A stretch of 33,337 bases of DNA from an uncultured Bacilli bacterium (GTDB taxonomy: Bacteria > Bacillota_I > Bacilli_A > RF39 > UBA660): contig CANRDL010000012.1 of assembly GCA_947629405.1 (NCBI GenBank), positions 1 to 33,337 on the forward strand, written 5' to 3'. Of the stretch, positions 10,010-30,519 are shown piece after piece. A program made the translations under genes and the position numbers. The notes beneath the pieces are model-generated. The model worked only from the letters and a program-made list of their open reading frames with translations. It did no database searches and had not been told where the DNA came from. Position 1 is the first letter of the stretch; the number at the start of each line of letters is the position of its first letter.

Positions 10010-10453
10010 TTATTTATTTTTTGAATCAATAAGTATAGTTATTGGTCCATCATTATTTATTAAAACATTCATATCTTCCCCAAAAATACCAGTTTTAACA
10101 TCAACAAATTTTTTTAATTTATTTGCAACATTTAAATAATCAGTTTCCGCGAGTTTATTATTTTTGGCCTTTATATAGCTTGGTCTATTGCCTTTTTTAG
10201 TATCCGCTTGTAAGGTAAATTGCGATACTAATAATATTTGTCCACCAAACTTAATTATATTATCATTCATTATACCATTTTCGTCATCAAATATCCGTAA
10301 ATTAATAATTTTTTTGACAATATAATCAATGTCTTCTTCATTATCATCTACATTAATTCCTAATAATATTACCATTCCTTTATCTATTTTGGCAACAATC
10401 TTATTTTTTACTAATACACTACTTTCCTTACTTCTTTGAATTAACGCTCGCAT
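10010..10453 (-). CDS. dtd: D-aminoacyl-tRNA deacylase
   Basis: Cleaves D-amino acids (and Gly from tRNA-Ala) off mischarged tRNAs, a chiral proofreading step. The two active-site motifs of DTD1 are visible: SQFTLQAD in the middle and the cross-subunit NDGPITILID (Gly-cisPro type) at the C-terminus. It starts MRALIQRSKESSV, the usual beginning. At 147 residues it is full length. It begins 2 nt after rel ends, the same rel-dtd linkage as in Bacillus, so the two are co-transcribed. Confidence 0.97.
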   Translation of the reverse strand: MRALIQRSKESSVLVKNKIVAKIDKGMVILLGINVDDNEEDIDYIVKKIINLRIFDDENGIMNDNIIKFGGQILLVSQFTLQADTKKGNRPSYIKAKNNKLAETDYLNVANKLKKFVDVKTGIFGEDMNVLINNDGPITILIDSKNK

Positions 10454-10455
10454 AT

Positions 10456-12594
10456 TTAAGTCCTTTCAATATGTTTAATAGATGATATTTTTAATAGTTC
10501 TTTGGAAATAGTTTTATATTCATCAATATTTTTTATTTTAATTTGCAATTTGTAATTATAAAAATTATCAATCTTATATTTTTCAAATGATACGACATTA
10601 ATTTTTAATAATGAAAATACTTTAATAATATCAAATAGAATATCTTTTAATGAATTTGTATTAATAGATATTTTGGTTAGATAATCATTTTCATTACTAT
10701 CATTCCAAGAAACATTTATCAATCTATCTTTAATTTCTTTAATATTAATACAATCTTTTTTGTGAACAGAAATACCTGATCCTTTAGTTACAAAACCAAT
10801 AATATCATCACCTTTTATCGGCATACAACATTTAGCTAAATTAACTTTAATATCATCTATTCCCTCTACTAATATATCACTGTTGTGATTAATTTTAGAT
10901 TCTTTAGGATGACTAATCATTTTATCAATTAAAATGTCTTTCTTGTTGCTCTTTTCATCAGTTAAAGAAATAATATAAGAGGCTGTATAACGAAAAGAAC
11001 CTATACTAAAGTACACTTCATTAATATCTTTTAGTTTTAATATATTTAATATTTTATTAATATTGCTTTCTACATTAAATTCATTAAATGATTTCTTTTG
11101 TTTGCGCAATTCTTTTTCTAATAATTTCTTACCTTTTTCTTCATAGGTATTTCTTTCTTGTTTAGAAAAATAAGCTTTAATTTTATTTTTAGCTTGTGAT
11201 GTTTTTATAAAGTTTAACCATTCTAAAGAAGGAGTTGCTGTCTTATTTGTTTGAATTTTGATAATATCTCCATCTTTTAATTCATAATTTAGAGGAACTT
11301 GTTTATCATTAACTATTGCTCCAACTGTTGTGTTACCAACTTCCGAATGAATTCGATAAGCAAAATCAACTGGTGATGATTTATCTGGTAATTCTACAAC
11401 ATCACCTTTAGGTGTAAAACAATAAATTAAATTACTTAAAAATTCTTGATTAATTGTCTCATTTAAATCTTTATCATCGTTATCAGAATTTTCATTAATT
11501 ATATTTCTAAAAATTTCTAATTTTTGTTCCATCATGCTTTGAATTTTAGCACTTCCATGTTCTTTATAAGACCAGTGAGAGGCAATACCATGCTCGGCAA
11601 TTTCATTCATTTCATGAGTTCGTAATTGAATTTCAAATATATATCCATCTACACCAAAGACAGTTGTATGTATTGATTGGTACATATTTTCTTTGGGCAT
11701 GGAAATATAATCTTTAAATCGATTAGGTAGTGGTCTAAATTTAGAATGAATAAGACCAACTGCTAAGTAACAATCACTTTCTTTTTCTAAAATTAAACGC
11801 AATGCTAAAATATCATATATATCTTTAAATTTATGATTATTTTGCATTTTATTATAAATACTATATATGCTTTTTACTCTTGCTTTTATTTCAAATTTAA
11901 TATCGTTTTCCAATAATAATTCGCAAATATTTTCTTTCATGTTTTGCAGTATTTCATTTAGTTCTTCTTCCGATGAGGCTAATTCTTCTTTAATTTCTTC
12001 ATAAACATCTGGTTTTAAATATTTTAAACATAAATCCTCTAATTCTACTTTAATACTATGAATACCAAGACGATGAGCAATAGGAATTAAAACATTCATT
12101 GTTTCATTTGCTTTTTGTTTTTGTTCATTTGGAGATAAAGCCCAAATAGTTCGCATATTATGAAGCCTATCAGCTAATTTTATAAATAAAACTCTAACAT
12201 CTTCTGATAAACCGACCACTATTTTTCTTAAATATATACTAGAACTTTCTCTATCATCATTTAATTTTAATTTATTGATTTTACTGACAATATTAACTAT
12301 ATTGGCTATTTCCTTCCCAAATGTTTCTTCAAGTTCAGTAAAAGTAGTTGCTCCATGATTTATAGTTTCGTGAAGCAATGCAGCACATATTGTTACATAA
12401 TCTACATTTAAATCAAGCAAAATTTCAGCAACCGCCACAGGATGAGTAATATATTCTTCATTAGTCTTTCGCATTTTATTAGCATGTTTTTGCTTAGCAA
12501 ATTCATAAGCTTTTGTTATTTTTTCAATTTCTTCAGTATTATAAATTTTTTCAATATTTTTTTTAAAATCATCAAATATTTTATCTTTTTTCAT
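10456..12594 (-). CDS. relA: Rel family (p)ppGpp synthetase with degenerate hydrolase motif
   Basis: Long RSH alarmone enzyme (712 residues) with all domains. A pseudo-HD hydrolase domain (about 40-160) comes first. The synthetase domain (about 235-340) has RVKSIYSIY, YDILALR, MYQSIHTT and EIQLRT, retaining the Arg/Lys, Asp, Tyr and Glu of the active site. Then come TGS (CFTPKGDVVELP), a helical and zinc-finger region (AKCCMPI ... HKKDC), and a C-terminal ACT. The hydrolase HDxxED motif reads HETINH: His75 is kept but Asp is Glu76, Glu is Asn79 and Asp is His80. His51 and Asp142 (LADRLHNMRT) remain. It therefore appears synthetase-competent but hydrolase-impaired. The second ATG (12594) is 7 nt from AAGGAG and preferred over 12597. 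Confidence 0.96.
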   Translation of the reverse strand: MKKDKIFDDFKKNIEKIYNTEEIEKITKAYEFAKQKHANKMRKTNEEYITHPVAVAEILLDLNVDYVTICAALLHETINHGATTFTELEETFGKEIANIVNIVSKINKLKLNDDRESSSIYLRKIVVGLSEDVRVLFIKLADRLHNMRTIWALSPNEQKQKANETMNVLIPIAHRLGIHSIKVELEDLCLKYLKPDVYEEIKEELASSEEELNEILQNMKENICELLLENDIKFEIKARVKSIYSIYNKMQNNHKFKDIYDILALRLILEKESDCYLAVGLIHSKFRPLPNRFKDYISMPKENMYQSIHTTVFGVDGYIFEIQLRTHEMNEIAEHGIASHWSYKEHGSAKIQSMMEQKLEIFRNIINENSDNDDKDLNETINQEFLSNLIYCFTPKGDVVELPDKSSPVDFAYRIHSEVGNTTVGAIVNDKQVPLNYELKDGDIIKIQTNKTATPSLEWLNFIKTSQAKNKIKAYFSKQERNTYEEKGKKLLEKELRKQKKSFNEFNVESNINKILNILKLKDINEVYFSIGSFRYTASYIISLTDEKSNKKDILIDKMISHPKESKINHNSDILVEGIDDIKVNLAKCCMPIKGDDIIGFVTKGSGISVHKKDCINIKEIKDRLINVSWNDSNENDYLTKISINTNSLKDILFDIIKVFSLLKINVVSFEKYKIDNFYNYKLQIKIKNIDEYKTISKELLKISSIKHIERT

Positions 12595-12608
12595 CATGTA
12601 TCTCCTTA

Positions 12609-12925: not shown

Positions 12926-12957
12926 AAAAAAAGCGATTATGCTACTTCATAAACGCT
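12926..12957 (-). terminator. Terminator of rplU-prp-rpmA, overlapping the rpmA 3' end
   Basis: AGCGTTTATG (12957-12948) pairs with CATAATCGCT (12941-12932), one T-T mismatch, loop of 6, then a T-run (12931-12926). The 5' arm and loop are rpmA coding sequence and the stop TAA lies in the 3' arm. Confidence 0.8.
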
Positions 12958-13224
12958 AACTTTTTTCTTATTCTTTCCCATTCTTTCATATTTTACTTTA
13001 CCATTAATTAAAGCAAATAAAGTATGATCTTTTCCCATTCCAACATTTTTACCTGGGAAAATTTTTGTACCGCGTTGACGATAAATAATACTTCCAGCAC
13101 TGACAATTTGTCCATCAGCAACTTTAGCGCCAAGTCTACGACCTCTTGAATCTCTATTATTTTGAGTAGAAGATTGTCCTTTTTTATGGGCAAATAATTG
13201 GATATTTAAAGAAATTAATTTCAT
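12937..13224 (-). CDS. rpmA: Ribosomal protein bL27 with cleavable N-terminal extension
   Basis: Large-subunit protein near the peptidyl-transferase centre. The Firmicute-type extension [11 protein letters not shown] precedes [15 protein letters not shown]; the [10 protein letters not shown] junction is the Prp protease cleavage motif, so the mature protein should begin at Ala12. The core [23 protein letters not shown] is typical. At 95 residues it is full length. ATG 13224 follows AAAGGAG, which overlaps the last codons of prp. The third gene of rplU-prp-rpmA. Confidence 0.97.
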
Positions 13225-13228
13225 AGTT

Positions 13229-13534
13229 TCACTCCTTTATTTGAATATTTTTAGGATATTGTTTTTTTAGTTCTTTAAATAACTCAATCATATTTAATAA
13301 AATTTTTTGAGTTACATTTTCATCTTTTATATCATATATTTCTAATAAACCATTTTTTTCAATATACTTTAACGATTTATTATCTATCAATAAAGCAGAA
13401 TTAATAGAACAAATTGCTATAGATGAAATAGAAGCGCACACAATATCATTACCATAGTCTGCATAATTTGCATGACCTTTAATTTTAACTTTTTTAATTA
13501 TATTATTACTAATCTCATAATTAATTTTTATCAT
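13229..13534 (-). CDS. prp: Prp, cysteine protease that matures bL27
   Basis: Ribosomal-processing cysteine protease (YsxB family), required where L27 carries an N-terminal extension. The catalytic pair is visible as His21 ([10 protein letters not shown]) and Cys33 ([12 protein letters not shown]). At 101 residues the length matches the family. It sits between rplU and rpmA, the conserved Firmicute order, 7 nt after rplU and with its TGA just inside the rpmA ribosome-site region. AAGG precedes ATG 13534. Confidence 0.95.
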
Positions 13535-13954: not shown

Positions 13955-13983
13955 ATTTTATCAAAAATGCTTATCTTTGTCAA
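13955..13983 (-). promoter_or_regulatory. Strong sigma-A promoter of rplU-prp-rpmA
   Basis: TTGACA (13983-13978), 17 nt, TAAAAT (13960-13955) with TGA before the -10. The -35 and spacer overlap the last codons of spoIVFB. Confidence 0.85.
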
Positions 13984-14737
13984 ATATCTTTGCTAATAAA
14001 TTTTTTTCGTTTACTAATTTATTATTTATTAAAAAATAATGTCGTTTCCCTTTTTGCATTTTTTTGATATTTTTGCCAAAAATTATTTTTCTTTTTTTAA
14101 ATTTATAATCATAAAGATATCTTTCTAATAAAAATAAATTAAAAGTATCTCTTATAGTATTTAAATAATTTAATAATTTATATATTAAAAAAACACAAAT
14201 CAAATAATTATCTAAATGGTTTATATAATTTAAAAATATAAAAAATATTAAAAAGATAATTGATAAAAATAAACAGATAAATATTGAATTATAAAAATTT
14301 TGAATTTGCTCAATTAATGATTTTAAAAAGAAAAAACCATCTAAGGGATAAATTGGCAGCAAATTAAATAAAAATATTGACCAATTATAATTTTTAAATA
14401 TTAAATAATAATTGGGATTTATATAACCTAAATTATATATGTATGAAATAATAAAATAAAATATTAATTGCAAAGATAATCCCGCTAAGGATATTAAGGT
14501 ATCATGATATATTGGTGAATTTATATTTTTGGAAATATTAACCTTACCACCAAAAGGTAAAAATTCTATATTTATAATTTCATATTTAAATAATTTAATT
14601 ACGATTATATGACCTAATTCATGGACTATAATTATTAATCCTAAAATAAAAATATAATTAAATAATCCACAAAAAAATGCTGATAATATTATAAAAATAG
14701 TTAAATAATTAATTTTTATTTTGTTTAATATATTCAT
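13961..14737 (-). CDS. spoIVFB: SpoIVFB-like intramembrane zinc metalloprotease
   Basis: Site-2-protease (M50) family; in Bacillus SpoIVFB cleaves pro-sigma-K in the outer forespore membrane. The zinc motif HELGH is at residues 39-43 in the second membrane segment, and the second metal motif [10 protein letters not shown] is at about 125-134. Around six hydrophobic segments are visible, and a charged C-terminal part (about 200-258) sits where the CBS domain lies in the family, but it is short. Its start overlaps spoIVFA by 29 bp. The order spoIVFA-spoIVFB-rplU-prp-rpmA is the Bacillus order, which supports the assignment. Ends in TGA. Confidence 0.88.
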
Positions 14738-15284
14738 CTAAATCTAAATTTTTACCATCTTTTTCTAAGACAAGATATAAAGTTTTTCCCTTAGTTTCTC
14801 CTATCATACTTTTCTTTTCAATATAATCATACATTTTTAAACTAGTCGTTGCTAAGTTGCAATACCAAATATCTACACCATCCATGCCTTGAATTATAAT
14901 ACATTTATTATATCCTTCTTTTTCGCCATTAAAAACTACTATTCCACTTTGAAGGGATGGAACTAAATAAGAATTATCTACAGTTAATTTATATCCCTCT
15001 TTATATTTAACTTTATTTTTGTAATTTATTTCTTCATTGAAAACTGATTGAACTTTGTTAGAAGTATCTTTTTTCATAAATAATACATCACCAATATATT
15101 TATCATATAAAGAATGAATTTTGGAAAATGATAATGAATCAGTAAAAATAGTATTTTTATATTTAAGTAAATTTTTATCACTAAAATTTATATAAATAAT
15201 ACTGACAAGTAAAAAAATAATACTTAATAAAATTCTAGTAAATACTCTTGCAACTATATTTTTTTTAGTCTTTTTTTTATTCAT
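14709..15284 (-). CDS. spoIVFA: SpoIVFA-like regulator of SpoIVFB
   Basis: A 191-residue protein with one N-terminal membrane span (about 15-32) after a Lys-rich start, and an outside domain resembling degenerate M23 peptidases: GIVVFNGEKEGYNKCIIIQGMD, then WYCNL, then GETKGKTLYLVLEKDGK. The M23 zinc residues are not evident, in line with a scaffold role. SpoIVFA holds SpoIVFB inactive until signalled. It is shorter than the Bacillus protein. ATG 15284 has AGGGTGA as ribosome site. Assignment rests on fold resemblance plus the position before spoIVFB and rplU. Confidence 0.82.
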   Translation of the reverse strand: MNKKKTKKNIVARVFTRILLSIIFLLVSIIYINFSDKNLLKYKNTIFTDSLSFSKIHSLYDKYIGDVLFMKKDTSNKVQSVFNEEINYKNKVKYKEGYKLTVDNSYLVPSLQSGIVVFNGEKEGYNKCIIIQGMDGVDIWYCNLATTSLKMYDYIEKKSMIGETKGKTLYLVLEKDGKNLDLDEYIKQNKN

Positions 15285-20942: not shown

Positions 20943-22340
20943 ATGAATAAGTTGGTTGAAAAATTAAAAACAGATACAGATAATATGAATGATATAATCT
21001 ATCGCAAAAAAATTATATCTAAAATTGAATTATACATTGTTTTTTCTGAATCATTAACAAACAGTGATAAAATTAGTGATTTTATTATAAGAAGTTTAAA
21101 TAAATTAAAAAAAGTAAATAAAAAAAATATTTTAGATAAGATTAAAAATAATATTAGCAATAATAAAGTTCAAGAAATCAATTCTTATCAAGAAATATGT
21201 CATTATTTACATTCAGGTTTTACTATTATAATTATTAATGGTATTGATACATATCTTGCTTTAGAAACCAAAGGAGAACTTTCAAGAAGTATTGATAAGC
21301 CGGAAAGTGAAAATACTTATCGTGGTGCTAAAGACGCTTTTACAGAAATTTATCAGACTAATATTGGGCTTATTAAAAGGAGAATAAAAAGTAATAAATT
21401 AAGAATTAAAAATTTTAATAAAGGAAATTACACGCAATCAGAAATTGGTTTATTATCACTCAGTGATAAAGTTCACAAAGAATCATATAATAATGTAATT
21501 AAACAATTAGAAAAATTAAATGTGGAAGATATTGTTAACTCTGGAGAAATTAAAAATCATATTGAAAAAGAAACGAAAAGTGCTTTTCCAACCATCCGAA
21601 CTACGGAAAGGCCCGACATTGCTAGTTTAGCATTACTATCTGGAAAAAGTGTTATTGTAATAGATAATTGTCCCTATGTTTTAATAATACCTGCCTGTTT
21701 AAATGACTTTTTTAAAACATCTGAAGATATTTATGGTAAAAATATTAATGTTACATTTACGAGAATATTAAAGTTATTAGCTTTTTTTATAGCATTACTC
21801 GTACCAGCAATTTATATTGCCATAATAACTTTTAATCAAGAAATGTTACCAACTGATCTTTTAATTAATTTTGCAATGCAAAGAGATGGTGTCCCCTTTC
21901 CGGCCTTTTTTGAAGCTATATTAATGATGATTTGTTTTGAAATACTAAGAGAAGGAGATTTAAGAGTTCCAGGTTTTTCAGGAAGTGCTTTATCAATTGT
22001 CGGAGCATTAATACTAGGTGATGCAGCAGTTAATGCCGGAATTGTTTCCCCTATTATGATAATAGTTATAGCCATAACTGCTATATCTTCTCTTTTATTT
22101 ACCGAACCTGAATTAATAAACGCTTTAAGAATTTGGCGAATATTTTTTATGATAGGTGCAACTATTATGGGAATAATTGGAGTATTAGTAGTATTCTTGC
22201 TATTAATAATTCATCTATCTTCATTAAAATCTTTTGGGGTACCTTATTTGCAACCATTTTCACCTATAAATAAAAAAGAATTAAAAGATAGTATTATCAA
22301 AGTTGATTCTCAAACTGGAGGTCAAAATGAAAAAAATTAA
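20943..22340 (+). CDS. gerKA: Spore germinant receptor subunit A (GerA family)
   Basis: A 465-residue inner-membrane subunit of a Ger-type germinant receptor. A soluble N-terminal part (1-270) includes YRGAKDAFTEIYQTNIGLIKRRI, equivalent to the GerA motif RGPREGF.E....N..LIRRRI, and RPDIASLALLSGKSVIVIDN. Four to five membrane spans follow (about 275-445), with VPFPAFFEA, FEILREGDLRVP and SFGVPYLQPFSP. The usual LREA.VRLP motif is LREGDLRVP here. It is a little shorter than Bacillus GerKA. ATG 20943 has AAGGGTGA. It overlaps gerKC by 14 bp. Which germinant it senses cannot be told; the K-type name is nominal. Confidence 0.9.
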   Translation: MNKLVEKLKTDTDNMNDIIYRKKIISKIELYIVFSESLTNSDKISDFIIRSLNKLKKVNKKNILDKIKNNISNNKVQEINSYQEICHYLHSGFTIIIINGIDTYLALETKGELSRSIDKPESENTYRGAKDAFTEIYQTNIGLIKRRIKSNKLRIKNFNKGNYTQSEIGLLSLSDKVHKESYNNVIKQLEKLNVEDIVNSGEIKNHIEKETKSAFPTIRTTERPDIASLALLSGKSVIVIDNCPYVLIIPACLNDFFKTSEDIYGKNINVTFTRILKLLAFFIALLVPAIYIAIITFNQEMLPTDLLINFAMQRDGVPFPAFFEAILMMICFEILREGDLRVPGFSGSALSIVGALILGDAAVNAGIVSPIMIIVIAITAISSLLFTEPELINALRIWRIFFMIGATIMGIIGVLVVFLLLIIHLSSLKSFGVPYLQPFSPINKKELKDSIIKVDSQTGGQNEKN

Positions 22341-23514
22341 AATATTGATTGTTGTATTATTTCTATTAGTAGTATCAGGATGTTATAATTACCGAGAATT
22401 AAATGAATTATCAATAGTATCCGCAATAGGAATTGACAAAGATAAAAATGATAATATTAAAGTAACAATTCAAGTAATCAATTCTAAAAAAGAAAGTTCA
22501 GATTCTTCACAATCTAATACTAATGCAACATTTATTACCTATGAATCAAGTGCTAAAACTATTCAAGAAGCTTTAAGAAAAGTAGTCTTATCATCACCTA
22601 AAAGATTTTTTGCCACTCAAATGCAAATTTTAGTAATAAGTGAAAAATGTGCTAAAGATGACATAACGAAATATATAGATTTTTTTACAAGAGACCCAGA
22701 AATCCAAATGAAATTTTTAACCTTAATTGCTAAAGATACAACAGCCAATAAAATATTAACTACTCTAACCCCTTTAGAAACTATTAATTCCACTAATATA
22801 AGAGAATCTTTAAAAACTAATACAAGATATTTAGGTATTGGTTATGAAATAACTTTTGAAGATGTAATTAATAATATGATAAATGATAAGATTGAAATTT
22901 CCATGCCGTCGGTAATAATTATCAATGAAAATAAAAATCAAGATAGCACTAAAAATTTAGAACAAGTTAAAAAAATTGCGGATTCTAAAATTTCGTCCAT
23001 TGCTGTATTTAAAAATAATAAATTAATTGGTTATTTAACCGACCAAGAATCAATTGCCTATTCTTTTATATTGGACAATATTGAAAATACGATTATTACT
23101 ACAAAATGTGCATCAGGACATATTTCATCAGAAATAATTGAATCACATACAAAAATTGATACTAATAAAAATAATATTTCTATAAATATTTCAGCAAATG
23201 CCAACATCAATGAAAGTACTTGTGAAACGGATTTAAATTCTAAAAAAGATTTAAATAAAATTAAAAGAAGCATAGAAAATAACATTAAAAATAATATAAA
23301 TAACACTTTAAATACAGTTCAAAAAAAATATAAATCAGATATATTTGGGTTTGAAGATTTAATATATAAAAATGATCCGAAATATTATAAGAATATTAAA
23401 AATTGGGATAACTTTTATCAAAATATTAATTTTAATGTCAATGTTGATATTGATACATTAGAAAAGGGAAATACATTATATACTCCAGAAAGGAAGTTAA
23501 AAAATGAAAAATAA
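22327..23514 (+). CDS. gerKC: Spore germinant receptor lipoprotein subunit C (GerAC/GerKC)
   Basis: A 395-residue lipoprotein of the Ger(x)C family. The signal peptide MKKIKILIVVLFLLVVSGC places the lipidated cysteine at 19, followed by YNYRELNELSIVSAIGIDKD, the family start. The rest is a three-domain soluble protein facing the outside of the inner membrane, Asn/Lys-rich with a helical segment near 300-350. GGAGGT lies 4 nt from ATG 22327; the frame is open 24 nt further but without a ribosome site. It overlaps gerKA by 14 bp and gerKB by 11 bp, giving the A-C-B order. Confidence 0.93.
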   Translation: MKKIKILIVVLFLLVVSGCYNYRELNELSIVSAIGIDKDKNDNIKVTIQVINSKKESSDSSQSNTNATFITYESSAKTIQEALRKVVLSSPKRFFATQMQILVISEKCAKDDITKYIDFFTRDPEIQMKFLTLIAKDTTANKILTTLTPLETINSTNIRESLKTNTRYLGIGYEITFEDVINNMINDKIEISMPSVIIINENKNQDSTKNLEQVKKIADSKISSIAVFKNNKLIGYLTDQESIAYSFILDNIENTIITTKCASGHISSEIIESHTKIDTNKNNISINISANANINESTCETDLNSKKDLNKIKRSIENNIKNNINNTLNTVQKKYKSDIFGFEDLIYKNDPKYYKNIKNWDNFYQNINFNVNVDIDTLEKGNTLYTPERKLKNEK

Positions 23515-24583
23515 AATAAGTATGTTACAACTTACATCAATAAATATTTTTATAATTATTTCTTCTTTTTTTGGAATTGGAATATATAATGTCTATAATG
23601 CCGCCAAAGTAGATGCTTGGATAAGCATTATATTTACAACTATATTATCTTTTTTAGTATTATTTATTGTTATTTATATCGTTAATTATAAAAAAGATTT
23701 AACAATTGGGGAAAAAATAAAATATCTATATGGTAAAAAATTGGGAACTTTTTTAAATATAATATTAATGTTGTTTGTAGTTTCCACTGCTATAAGCCTG
23801 ATTTTTAACTTAACACATTTTATAATTACCCAATTTTTATCGGAAACTACCGTAATAGCAATTGAATTAATCTTTAGTTTAGCAATCATTTATATTAATA
23901 TTAAAGGAATTGAAACTATTTCCCGCACTTCTTTAATTTTATTATTTTTTTCTTTGATTTTTTTACTTTTTTCGATGATTGGTTTACTGCCAAACATCGA
24001 ATTTAATAATTTTCAACCAATATTAGAATATGGATTTAAAAGACCACTTAATGGGGGAATAAGAGTATTCTTACTTAATTTTGTGCCTCTATTTTTAATT
24101 TTAATTGTCCCAAAGAATCAAATTAAAAATAATGATAAGTATAACAAATATACTTTTTTAGCCTATATGGTTGGCTGTCTTATTATTTTTTTAATAACGG
24201 CAATAACTTTAGGAAGTTTAGGAATTCACTTAACAAAAATATATCAATATCCAGAATATATTGTTTTAAAAAGAATTGAAATTTTTAATTTTATTGATCG
24301 AATTGAAAATTTAATTTCTATGCAATGGATATTTGGTTTATTTATCGTAATTTCTTTTTGTGTATATAACATCAATAATTTAATTAAACCTAATAATAAA
24401 TCAAAACTTTTACCAATTATCATTTTTATAATAATTACTACAACTACTAATTTAATATTTAAAAATATAACTATTTTTAATTATTATACATATTATATTG
24501 CCCCCTTAATTAGAATTGGATTTTTAATATTTATCTTGTTTATAGCTATAACAATAAAAATTAAAAGATCACTTAAATCTTAA
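23504..24583 (+). CDS. gerKB: Spore germinant receptor permease-like subunit B (GerAB/GerKB)
   Basis: A 359-residue integral membrane protein of the GerAB/ArcD/ProY family, with about ten hydrophobic segments, an amino-acid-transporter-like fold that binds germinants in related receptors. The N-terminal MKNKISMLQLTSINIFIIISS and GVYNAAKVDAW-like segment (GIYNVYNAAKVDAWIS) fit the family. It completes the receptor with gerKA and gerKC. Its stop lies 15 bp inside the 3' end of the convergent helicase gene. Confidence 0.92.
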   Translation: MKNKISMLQLTSINIFIIISSFFGIGIYNVYNAAKVDAWISIIFTTILSFLVLFIVIYIVNYKKDLTIGEKIKYLYGKKLGTFLNIILMLFVVSTAISLIFNLTHFIITQFLSETTVIAIELIFSLAIIYINIKGIETISRTSLILLFFSLIFLLFSMIGLLPNIEFNNFQPILEYGFKRPLNGGIRVFLLNFVPLFLILIVPKNQIKNNDKYNKYTFLAYMVGCLIIFLITAITLGSLGIHLTKIYQYPEYIVLKRIEIFNFIDRIENLISMQWIFGLFIVISFCVYNINNLIKPNNKSKLLPIIIFIIITTTTNLIFKNITIFNYYTYYIAPLIRIGFLIFILFIAITIKIKRSLKS

Positions 24584-28220: not shown

Positions 28221-28750
28221 ATTTCTTCTAAACATAAGTTAGAAACATACATTTTTTTTGCTAAATTTTTACCGACATATCTTATATGCCAAGGTTCATA
28301 AGAAATCTTTGTAATTTTTTCTTTATCTTTCGGATATCTTAAGATAAAACCAAATTTATATAAATTATTATGCAATAAATTAAGAAAATCTTTATCTTTA
28401 ATATCAAAATCAAATAATGGTTTATTTTCTTTAATTAAAATTAAATCTATAGCAAGACCAGTATGATGTTCAGAATAACCAGGCAGCATCACATATTTTA
28501 AAGTATGATCAATGCCTTTTAAAGATAAAATTTCATAAAACAATTTTTCTTGTTCCAAAAAACTTCTATAACCTGATTCAACATCAATAATATATCCTAG
28601 TTTTTTTAAATATTTTTGTAATTTTAAATAATTTTTATAAGTCTTTTTTTCAACTTTAATTTCAGCATTACAAATATTTTTAAATTTAATCAATTTAATT
28701 TTAGGAAAAGAATATTTATGATCTTTATTAACAAGAATTTTATAATTCAT
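28205..28750 (-). CDS. D-Ala-D-Ala carboxypeptidase, VanY/M15B family
   Basis: A 181-residue zinc peptidase trimming the terminal D-Ala of peptidoglycan stem peptides. The zinc and catalytic motifs are SEHHTGLAIDL (SxHxxGxAxD) and EPWHIRYVG, preceded by the GYRSFLEQ substrate-region motif. No signal peptide or membrane anchor is visible: the start MNYKILVNKDHKYSF is not hydrophobic, which is unusual because most VanY-type enzymes act outside the membrane. ATG 28750 is 5 nt from GGAGG. Shared drug resistance should not be inferred from the family name. It converges on def. Confidence 0.9.
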   Translation of the reverse strand: MNYKILVNKDHKYSFPKIKLIKFKNICNAEIKVEKKTYKNYLKLQKYLKKLGYIIDVESGYRSFLEQEKLFYEILSLKGIDHTLKYVMLPGYSEHHTGLAIDLILIKENKPLFDFDIKDKDFLNLLHNNLYKFGFILRYPKDKEKITKISYEPWHIRYVGKNLAKKMYVSNLCLEEIKKDD

Positions 28751-28769
28751 GATTTCCTCCAATTAAATT

Positions 28770-28807
28770 ATATAAAAACAGAATTATATTTATTCTATAA
28801 TTCTGTT
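28770..28807 (-). terminator. Terminator of ezrA
   Basis: AACAGAATTATA (28807-28796) pairs perfectly with TATAATTCTGTT (28788-28777), loop of 7, then T residues. The ezrA TAG stop spans the end of the 5' arm and the loop. Confidence 0.85.
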
Positions 28808-30519
28808 TGGTAAGATTCAATTAATTTTTTATATGCTTCAGGTTCAATAATATTAATACTACTTATAGCATTTTCTAAAGCGTTTTTAAAATTACCTTTA
28901 TAAAACATGCCCTCAGCTTTTGCCAGACCAAAATCAATTTCTTTATTTACAGGACGATATCTATTACCATAAACTATAGCAATTTCTGCCATAGCCGCAG
29001 TTTTTATTATTTCATTAGAAGTATTATATAATTTTAAGACTAAGTCACGAGCAGTATCTACCCTAGTATTTAAAACTCTAATAGATATTGGTTTCTTTTC
29101 TAACTCTTTAATTATTTCTTTTATAGCTTCATTAGCTTCTTTTAGTTCTATATAATAATTCTTAGGAACAACAGGCAATTTATAAGAGTTCATTTTATCT
29201 TTAGATCTTCTCAAAATATCTTTTATATCATCTAATTGTTCTCTAGCTCTTATTTCATCTTCCTTTAATTGTCCAAGAGTTCTTAAAGCAATTTCTAATT
29301 TTTCTTCAGAATCAGTCACTTTGACATTTAAAAGTTCCATTTCTTTAGCCAACTTTGAATAAGGAAATGATTTATTTCGATGCATTGAAATTATTTGATT
29401 ATAATTATTTTTTTCAATATTTAATTCTTCTTTTATATTTTTAATAATATCAACATCTTCTTCAGATAAATCATATGAATATTTAATATCGCCAATTGAT
29501 TTATATAAATCTTTAACAGTTGAAGTTAACTTATTAATTTTTACACCTAATGTTCGAGAATATTCCTCAAATAATTTTCTAGTAACTTTTTCTCTTTCAA
29601 AATCATGATATAAACTTTCAAAATAGTCTAGAATTGTTTTAAGTTCAAAAATTGAATCTTCGACATTTAAAACATTTAATCTAGCAAAAATATCAGCAAT
29701 TTTTTTATTAGATTCTTCAATATTATATTCAATATTTAAATAATCTAATTGGTACCCTTCTTTAATCATTTTCTTTTTAATATTTAAAACATCTTTTTCT
29801 TTATTAGGAATAATTCCTTTTCCCATTAAAATAATACTAGGTGCTTCCTCAATAATTACTTCTAAATTACCTATCGTATCATCTAACGCTTTTACAATTT
29901 TACCGACTTCGGTAAAATTATTATTATCCATAGATTCTTCAAAAGCCGAAAATAGTTTATCAATATTATCAAATTGTAATTCAATAGGATTTTCAATTAT
30001 ATTATAACTATCTTTAGAATTTTTATATTTTAATAAAAGAGTACGATATTTAGTTTTAAGTCTTGTTACTGTTTCACGATTTTTTTCCTCACTTTGAGTA
30101 AGTTGTCTTATTTCATCAAGTAAAAAATTAGCCTTCATTTTAACATAATAAATTTGTAATTCAGCTCGAGCAATTAAAGTATCTAAATTTTTAAAATCTT
30201 TTTCTTTAAATTTATCTTCAATATCTAATAATAAATCAGTTATTTTAGGTACATCTTCATCTTTTATAATTTTAAATCTCTTTTGCCAATTATCATATGT
30301 TTCTTTTAAAGAATCATTATTAATTAAAGCTTCAACTTTATTAAGTTCAGATAGAATTGAAGCAGATATAATTAAATTTTTATCTCTCTCTAAAGAATTC
30401 AATTCATTTTCATATTTTTTAAATAGTCTATTGCGAATTAAATTTAAAACTACAATAATTATAATTATAGATAGAAAATAATATGTAGTAGCAATTAAAA
30501 TAAAAGTCGTTTTTGACAT
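28795..30519 (-). CDS. ezrA: Septation ring regulator EzrA
   Basis: A 574-residue negative regulator of FtsZ ring assembly, typical of Bacilli. One N-terminal span (about 5-27) with the N-terminus outside is followed by a long cytoplasmic coiled-coil, spectrin-like region. Typical sequence includes YDNWQKRFKIIKDEDVPKI near 80-98 and the Q.YYVKMKANFLLDEI segment. Length matches the Bacillus protein. ATG 30519 follows AGGAAGTGA. It stands between its own extended -10 promoter and a strong terminator. The neighbouring rpsD is divergent. Confidence 0.92.
   Translation of the reverse strand: MSKTTFILIATTYYFLSIIIIIVVLNLIRNRLFKKYENELNSLERDKNLIISASILSELNKVEALINNDSLKETYDNWQKRFKIIKDEDVPKITDLLLDIEDKFKEKDFKNLDTLIARAELQIYYVKMKANFLLDEIRQLTQSEEKNRETVTRLKTKYRTLLLKYKNSKDSYNIIENPIELQFDNIDKLFSAFEESMDNNNFTEVGKIVKALDDTIGNLEVIIEEAPSIILMGKGIIPNKEKDVLNIKKKMIKEGYQLDYLNIEYNIEESNKKIADIFARLNVLNVEDSIFELKTILDYFESLYHDFEREKVTRKLFEEYSRTLGVKINKLTSTVKDLYKSIGDIKYSYDLSEEDVDIIKNIKEELNIEKNNYNQIISMHRNKSFPYSKLAKEMELLNVKVTDSEEKLEIALRTLGQLKEDEIRAREQLDDIKDILRRSKDKMNSYKLPVVPKNYYIELKEANEAIKEIIKELEKKPISIRVLNTRVDTARDLVLKLYNTSNEIIKTAAMAEIAIVYGNRYRPVNKEIDFGLAKAEGMFYKGNFKNALENAISSINIIEPEAYKKLIESYQTEL

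Follow-up and report, generated by a model that had tools for sequence, protein, structure and literature searches.

In Firmicutes, Rel is generally taken to have both activities and to be, as a rule, the main hydrolase. In the Moraxellaceae (Acinetobacter) a duplicated Rel has been split completely: RelA[hS] is a synthetase-only copy with a pseudo-hydrolase (pseudo-HD) domain and SpoT[Hs] a hydrolase-only copy with a pseudo-synthetase (pseudo-SYNTH) domain (PMC3153485, PMC9974481). RelA of beta- and gamma-proteobacteria is a long RSH that combines a synthetase with a non-catalytic HD domain; it has lost H77, D78 and D144 (F, P and E at these positions in our alignment of E. coli RelA) and carries the motif EFDD. 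RshC, described as [HS] from six Bacillus strains and of uncertain origin, is a second RSH in Bacilli that is truncated in the helical region after the TGS domain and has neither CC nor ACT (Atkinson et al. 2011, PMC3153485), and RshB of Bacteroidetes stems from a lineage-specific Rel duplication with one divergent-HD copy (PMC3153485). Finally, SAH/MESH1 proteins balance synthetases by hydrolysis in trans.

Here we describe what is apparently a new and independent variant of the RelA/SpoT-type division of labour, in RF39, an order of gut bacteria with tiny genomes. The window (the whole stretch of DNA that was analysed, 33,337 nucleotides) encodes a long Rel with an altered hydrolase site, and a second RSH, the paralogue, is encoded elsewhere in the same genome. 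The Moraxellaceae pair likewise derives from a duplicated Rel, but RF39 belongs to another phylum and its duplication is a separate one; moreover, the window Rel keeps RFKD and the metal-ligand positions, the hydrolase copy has no C-terminus after the TGS domain, and the family shows many losses of the HD instead of one. Like RshC, the paralogue is a second copy in Bacilli that is truncated after TGS, but it forms the sister group of the RF39 Rels and carries the predicted synthetase-inactivating replacement E324Q; RshC was compared by its description, and a plasmid search for it returned only ordinary Rel/SpoT. In the case of RshB the divergent HD belongs to the additional gene, whereas in RF39 it belongs to the original Rel, which sits at the dtd locus. 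The role that we propose for the paralogue resembles that of SAH/MESH1, and some RF39 family members carry SAH-like HD_4 proteins; unlike SAH/MESH1, the paralogue still has a pseudo-SYNTH and a TGS domain and derives from Rel. Searches of the open-licence PMC literature yielded the proteobacterial RelA/SpoT split, SpoT[Hs] of Moraxellaceae, RshB and RshC, but neither a Rel limited to synthesis nor a Rel paralogue limited to hydrolysis from RF39 or Bacilli.

The Rel of the window

The rel gene (10456..12597, minus strand) encodes a long RSH of 713 amino acids that scores 668.5 bits with TIGR00691 in the family profile search (cut-off 499.2). All domains of a long RSH were found, all on the minus strand: an HD_4 domain (12061..12510, E 3.9e-41), a RelA_SpoT synthetase domain (11554..11880), a TGS domain (11251..11427), a helical/RIS region with the conserved Cys-Cys pair C590 and C591 (10738..11208) and an ACT/RRM domain (10462..10689). 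Directly downstream is dtd, encoding D-Tyr-tRNA deacylase (10010..10453, minus strand; PF02580, E 7.3e-50), which is also the gene order of B. subtilis (relA-dtd).

Residues 74-82 of Rel read LLHETINHG in place of LLHDxxEDT (12352..12378, minus strand). This substitution had been noticed in an initial annotation of the window, whose interval of 12352-12372 corresponds exactly to HETINHG, and its statement that three of the four HDxxED residues are changed is correct: the His is kept, Asp is replaced by Glu, Glu by Asn and Asp by His. At the positions of the B. subtilis Rel hydrolase set (H53/H77/D78/E81/D82/D144) the alignment thus shows H/H/E/N/H/D, and R44, K141, R145 and N148 (B. subtilis numbering) are kept as well. 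The flanking metal ligands are indeed retained, as is LADRLHNMRT, but the residue numbers originally given (51, 75 and 142) are one too low because the second ATG had been used as start; the ligand positions are His52 (12442..12444, minus strand), His76 and Asp143 (12169..12171, minus strand). Judged from the alignment, the metal-ligand positions are kept while the catalytic Glu-Asp pair is gone; the absence of ppGpp hydrolysis is a prediction, and residual hydrolysis is conceivable. An AlphaFold model retains the HD fold with good confidence (pLDDT mostly 75-93).

The synthetase site is complete, also as originally annotated: every residue checked is present, including the RFKD motif and the catalytic Glu322 (11632..11634, minus strand), which corresponds to E324 of B. 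subtilis Rel and E323 of RelSeq. Rel of the window is a predicted ppGpp synthetase with a pseudo-hydrolase domain, Rel[hS], and the usual annotation of such RF39 Rels as bifunctional is probably wrong. The proposal that hydrolysis was lost independently of proteobacterial RelA holds: neither of two RelA traits, EXDD instead of RXKD and loss of the HD metal ligands, was found (RFKD and the ligands are kept, with D78E), the score with the proteobacterial RelA equivalog NF008124 is 440 bits (cut-off 728), and the protein groups with the Rels of its own family.

Translations of other genes in the window include three that resemble a spore-germination receptor operon (GerA/GerC/GerB-like, 20943-24583) and a SpoIVFA/SpoIVFB-like pair (13961-15284); they suggest that a bacterium with a very small genome, 1.1 Mb, forms spores. 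An N-terminally extended ribosomal protein L27 is encoded beside a 101-amino-acid Prp-like protease (12937-13534), which we take to be the known L27-processing arrangement of Firmicutes.

A second RSH in the same genome

A synthetase-only Rel had been expected to demand another alarmone hydrolase, to be looked for as a SAH or a second RSH. A profile search of the window's own genome (a draft metagenome assembly of 1.13 Mb in 44 contigs, 88.7% complete) found exactly one candidate, a further RSH whose HD is intact and whose synthetase is broken. HD_4 is present in only two proteins and RelA_SpoT above cut-off in only two, Rel and the paralogue. With these two profiles no small alarmone synthetase was found in this genome, and no SAH or third RSH above or near the threshold; a sub-threshold RelA_SpoT match on contig C35 reaches 12.9 bits.

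The paralogue (contig C5, ~28663-30078, minus strand; 471 amino acids from its ATG) consists of HD_4, a weakly matching RelA_SpoT (68.7 bits) and TGS, and then ends: the rest of the C-terminus, with the ZFD/RIS and ACT parts, is lost. It shows HHDEDD at the hydrolase positions, with the motif LLHDTLEDT, and its synthetase reads DKNNKKTDYQHQQK, that is D264N and E324Q, with other losses evident in the alignment. According to PMC13299517, which cites Hogg et al., E323Q and D264G abolish the synthetase activity of RelSeq; the two proteins are thus reciprocal in sequence, Rel with HHENHD and a complete synthetase, the paralogue with HHDEDD and a broken one. The paralogue shares the intact HD site and the replaced synthetase catalytic residues with [Hs] proteins but not their full C-terminal domains. 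In structure predictions its Core segment is ordered, whereas the Core of the window Rel is of low confidence, a difference that would be weakly in line with the IDR trend of PMC9974481; Acinetobacter SpoT relies on TGS and Core for the stability of its HD-active state (PMC9974481), and TGS is a part that the paralogue retains.

The origin of the paralogue was examined with two quick trees that contain some long branches, one of them leading to the paralogue of the window genome. Both in the HD-only tree (intact Rels only) and in the HD-SYN-TGS tree all paralogues fall into a single clade (SH-aLRT 92 and 99) that is sister to the long Rels of the family, and both groups together exclude the outgroup with a support of 97-99. 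This topology is consistent with a single duplication close to the base of the family. Orthologues of the paralogue are found throughout the family, and no second RSH copy turned up among about 200 genomes sampled from other families in this class. A horizontal origin from another family is not favoured, given the sister position in both trees. The search for a conserved operon found none in 21 loci; in several genera valS (valyl-tRNA synthetase) lies directly beside the paralogue (L328, G099:C1:76500-96400; L330; L337), and the neighbourhood is otherwise unconserved.

We consider it probable that Rel is a synthetase only and that the paralogue hydrolyses (p)ppGpp in trans, a RelA/SpoT-like division of labour that arose independently in Bacilli. 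The ordinary long Rel of the family would have lost ppGpp hydrolysis with the change of the catalytic Glu-Asp pair to Asn-His and of D78 to Glu. With TGS, RIS and ACT kept, it would sense uncharged tRNA on the ribosome and make (p)ppGpp, as characterised Rel and RelA do; its HD, having lost the Glu-Asp pair, would be unable to cut and is probably kept as the regulatory half of an N-terminal switch, comparable to RelA (PMC8012599). The paralogue, born by duplication near the base of the RF39 family, would hydrolyse (p)ppGpp with its intact HD; its synthetase is predicted to be dead (E324Q, D264N and others) and, by comparison with characterised relatives, loss of the parts that hold Rel at the ribosome would leave it uncoupled from there.

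Altered hydrolase sites and the paralogue across the RF39 family

A survey of 117 genomes of the same family (order RF39), representing 116 genera, yielded 107 long Rels that could be classified. The change in the hydrolase site is not peculiar to the window genome: of these Rels, 47 have an intact hydrolase set and 60 an altered one. The synthetase residues considered were R241, K243, D264, R269, R295, K297, D298, Y308, H312, E324, Q326 and R328; D264, R295, K297, D298 and E324 are each present in 107/107, as is RFKD, and eleven synthetase residues are invariant or nearly so, with Q309 varying in two Rels. Parsimony on the long-Rel tree requires about 18 changes to account for loss of the hydrolase set, of which at least 6 fall on well-supported branches. 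Outside the family the hydrolase site is intact in 20/20 Rels from 17 other families of the class, and in 75/75 Rels of a named set that was fetched with HD-domain patterns and is therefore biased toward intact domains; the contrast with the 60/107 altered Rels of the family exceeds chance. A scan of named genomes with generic Rel motifs gave outgroups and a few named relatives, not the paralogue. One of these relatives, Candidatus Aphodocola (L228), belongs to this group; it has been assigned to the GTDB order RF39 (PMC8035907).

The survey found 54 copies of the paralogue. HD is intact in 53 or all 54 of them, E324 is replaced by Q in 52 (the remainder have K or R, or the position is not covered) and R269 by K in 48. 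Mean pairwise identities of HD and SYN are 0.48 and 0.62 for degenerate Rels, 0.65 and 0.74 for intact Rels and 0.61 and 0.47 for the paralogues, indicating that each protein conserves the half that it is predicted to use. The ratio of HD to SYN on terminal branches is 1.51 for degenerate and 1.12 for intact Rels (p 0.039, with the scored residues left out and relatedness ignored). Two genomes carry two hydrolase-only copies each (L071 and L076 in G066; L028 and L038 in G028). In one paralogue-bearing genome the long Rel is broken by an in-frame TAA (L356, G124:C1:74325-74765), either a pseudogene or an assembly error.

Loss of the hydrolase site and presence of the paralogue are imperfectly paired. 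The paralogue accompanies 35/60 degenerate and 18/47 intact Rels (Fisher p 0.052), and any second HD 46/60 and 26/47 (Fisher p 0.023); in phylogenetically independent pairs the paralogue does not track HD loss (sign test p ~ 1), and a strict dependence of HD loss on the paralogue is unsupported after this correction. About half of the sister lineages of paralogue-bearing genomes keep a bifunctional-looking Rel, and within the genera g38 and g70 some species have the paralogue and others lack it. No other HD_4 protein was found beside the degenerate Rel in any sampled species of g67 (three: G067, G168 and G179; Rel motifs LHDTIEY, LSEIITE and LHDVTSE) or of g39 (two: G039 and G150). Assembly gaps explain some absences but hardly three of three. 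Elsewhere in the family ppGpp may be removed by SAH-like or HD_4-AAA proteins, so that the paralogue would be one solution among several. Several family members encode proteins of ~450-650 amino acids in which an HD_4 with intact HDxxED is fused to an AAA_28 (NadR-kinase-like) ATPase domain (L193:942-2291, L191:934-2283, L195, L186, L187 and L357), possibly another alarmone or dinucleotide hydrolase.

The derived motif and its possible meanings

The hydrolase motif of the window Rel had been called ruined, a description that does not fit its conservation. In the long-Rel tree the protein lies within a clade of 30 members (SH-aLRT 95), all degenerate. Within a subclade of 20 genomes, H53, H77 and D144 are present in 20/20, E78 in 18/20, N81 in 16/20 and N148 in 19/20, while synonymous codons vary at the motif residues (for example CAT/CAC, GAA/GAG, AAT/AAC). 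Alignment with close relatives, suggested at the outset, shows the same motif in the congener G035 and in at least six other genera. Conserved residues with varying synonymous codons argue for a derived motif, HETxNHG, that is under selection, not for error or simple decay. Between two congeners dN/dS is 0.13 for HD and 0.035 for SYN (range 0.03-0.15): the HD domain is relaxed relative to the synthetase yet constrained. E78, N81 and G83 are conserved to roughly the same degree as the HD domain on average, which argues for a maintained domain but falls short of proving a new function.

This maintenance, together with the retained metal-ligand positions and R44, K141, R145 and N148, would also be expected if the HD still hydrolysed ppGpp, with Glu78 binding the metal along with H53, H77 and D144, and Asn81 and His82 replacing Glu and Asp; in favour of this reading, some degenerate genera have no other RSH hydrolase. 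We think this unlikely, as the Glu-Asp pair is invariant in the sampled Rels outside the family and in all paralogues, its loss kills hydrolysis by SpoT (which was made hydrolase-inactive by substituting Y51, E82, D83 or N147; PMC9974481), and in degenerate Rels the HD changes at a higher rate than the synthetase. Improbable, too, is that the remodelled HD took on another substrate, or that it binds an alarmone or nucleotide uncut as a sensor gating the synthetase. The pseudo-HD of RelA regulates its synthetase (PMC8012599) and, unlike RelA, the window Rel keeps its pocket residues and a conserved derived motif, but position 82 is conserved to only 45%, the motif as a whole no better than its domain, and the other degenerate clades share no common replacement. 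The second RSH could itself be diverging in a different role, such as one on another nucleotide substrate, with its retention or loss having unrelated causes: its distribution is patchy, it has no fixed gene neighbourhood, it tracks HD loss poorly on the phylogeny and the copy of the window genome sits on a long branch. With hydrolase residues conserved in essentially all 54 copies, HD as the paralogue's most conserved domain and no further HD_4 protein in the window genome, this is very improbable. That the finding is an artefact, be it a sequencing error, a pseudogene or a contaminant contig, has only the draft state of the assembly in its favour and can practically be dismissed, since the motif recurs with different codons in independent genomes of other genera, the open frame is full-length, dN/dS is low and the paralogue has orthologues across the family.

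The preferred reading thus remains a synthetase-only Rel with a hydrolase acting in trans. A bolder possibility, of which we are rather doubtful, is that the HETxNHG domain has been repurposed as a metal-binding, non-hydrolytic sensor that gates the synthetase on binding an alarmone or nucleotide and that RF39 is a natural series of many hydrolase losses after one duplication, including genera with a synthetase but no RSH hydrolase. The genera g67 and g39 can be named as those in which removal of ppGpp would need another route than an RSH hydrolase, and the paralogue is predicted to be a ppGpp hydrolase without the ribosome-binding parts. In one family, about a hundred genera would represent different stages of splitting both activities between paralogues, with many separate losses, and how opposing activities in one enzyme separate may be tested in RF39 by comparison and assay.
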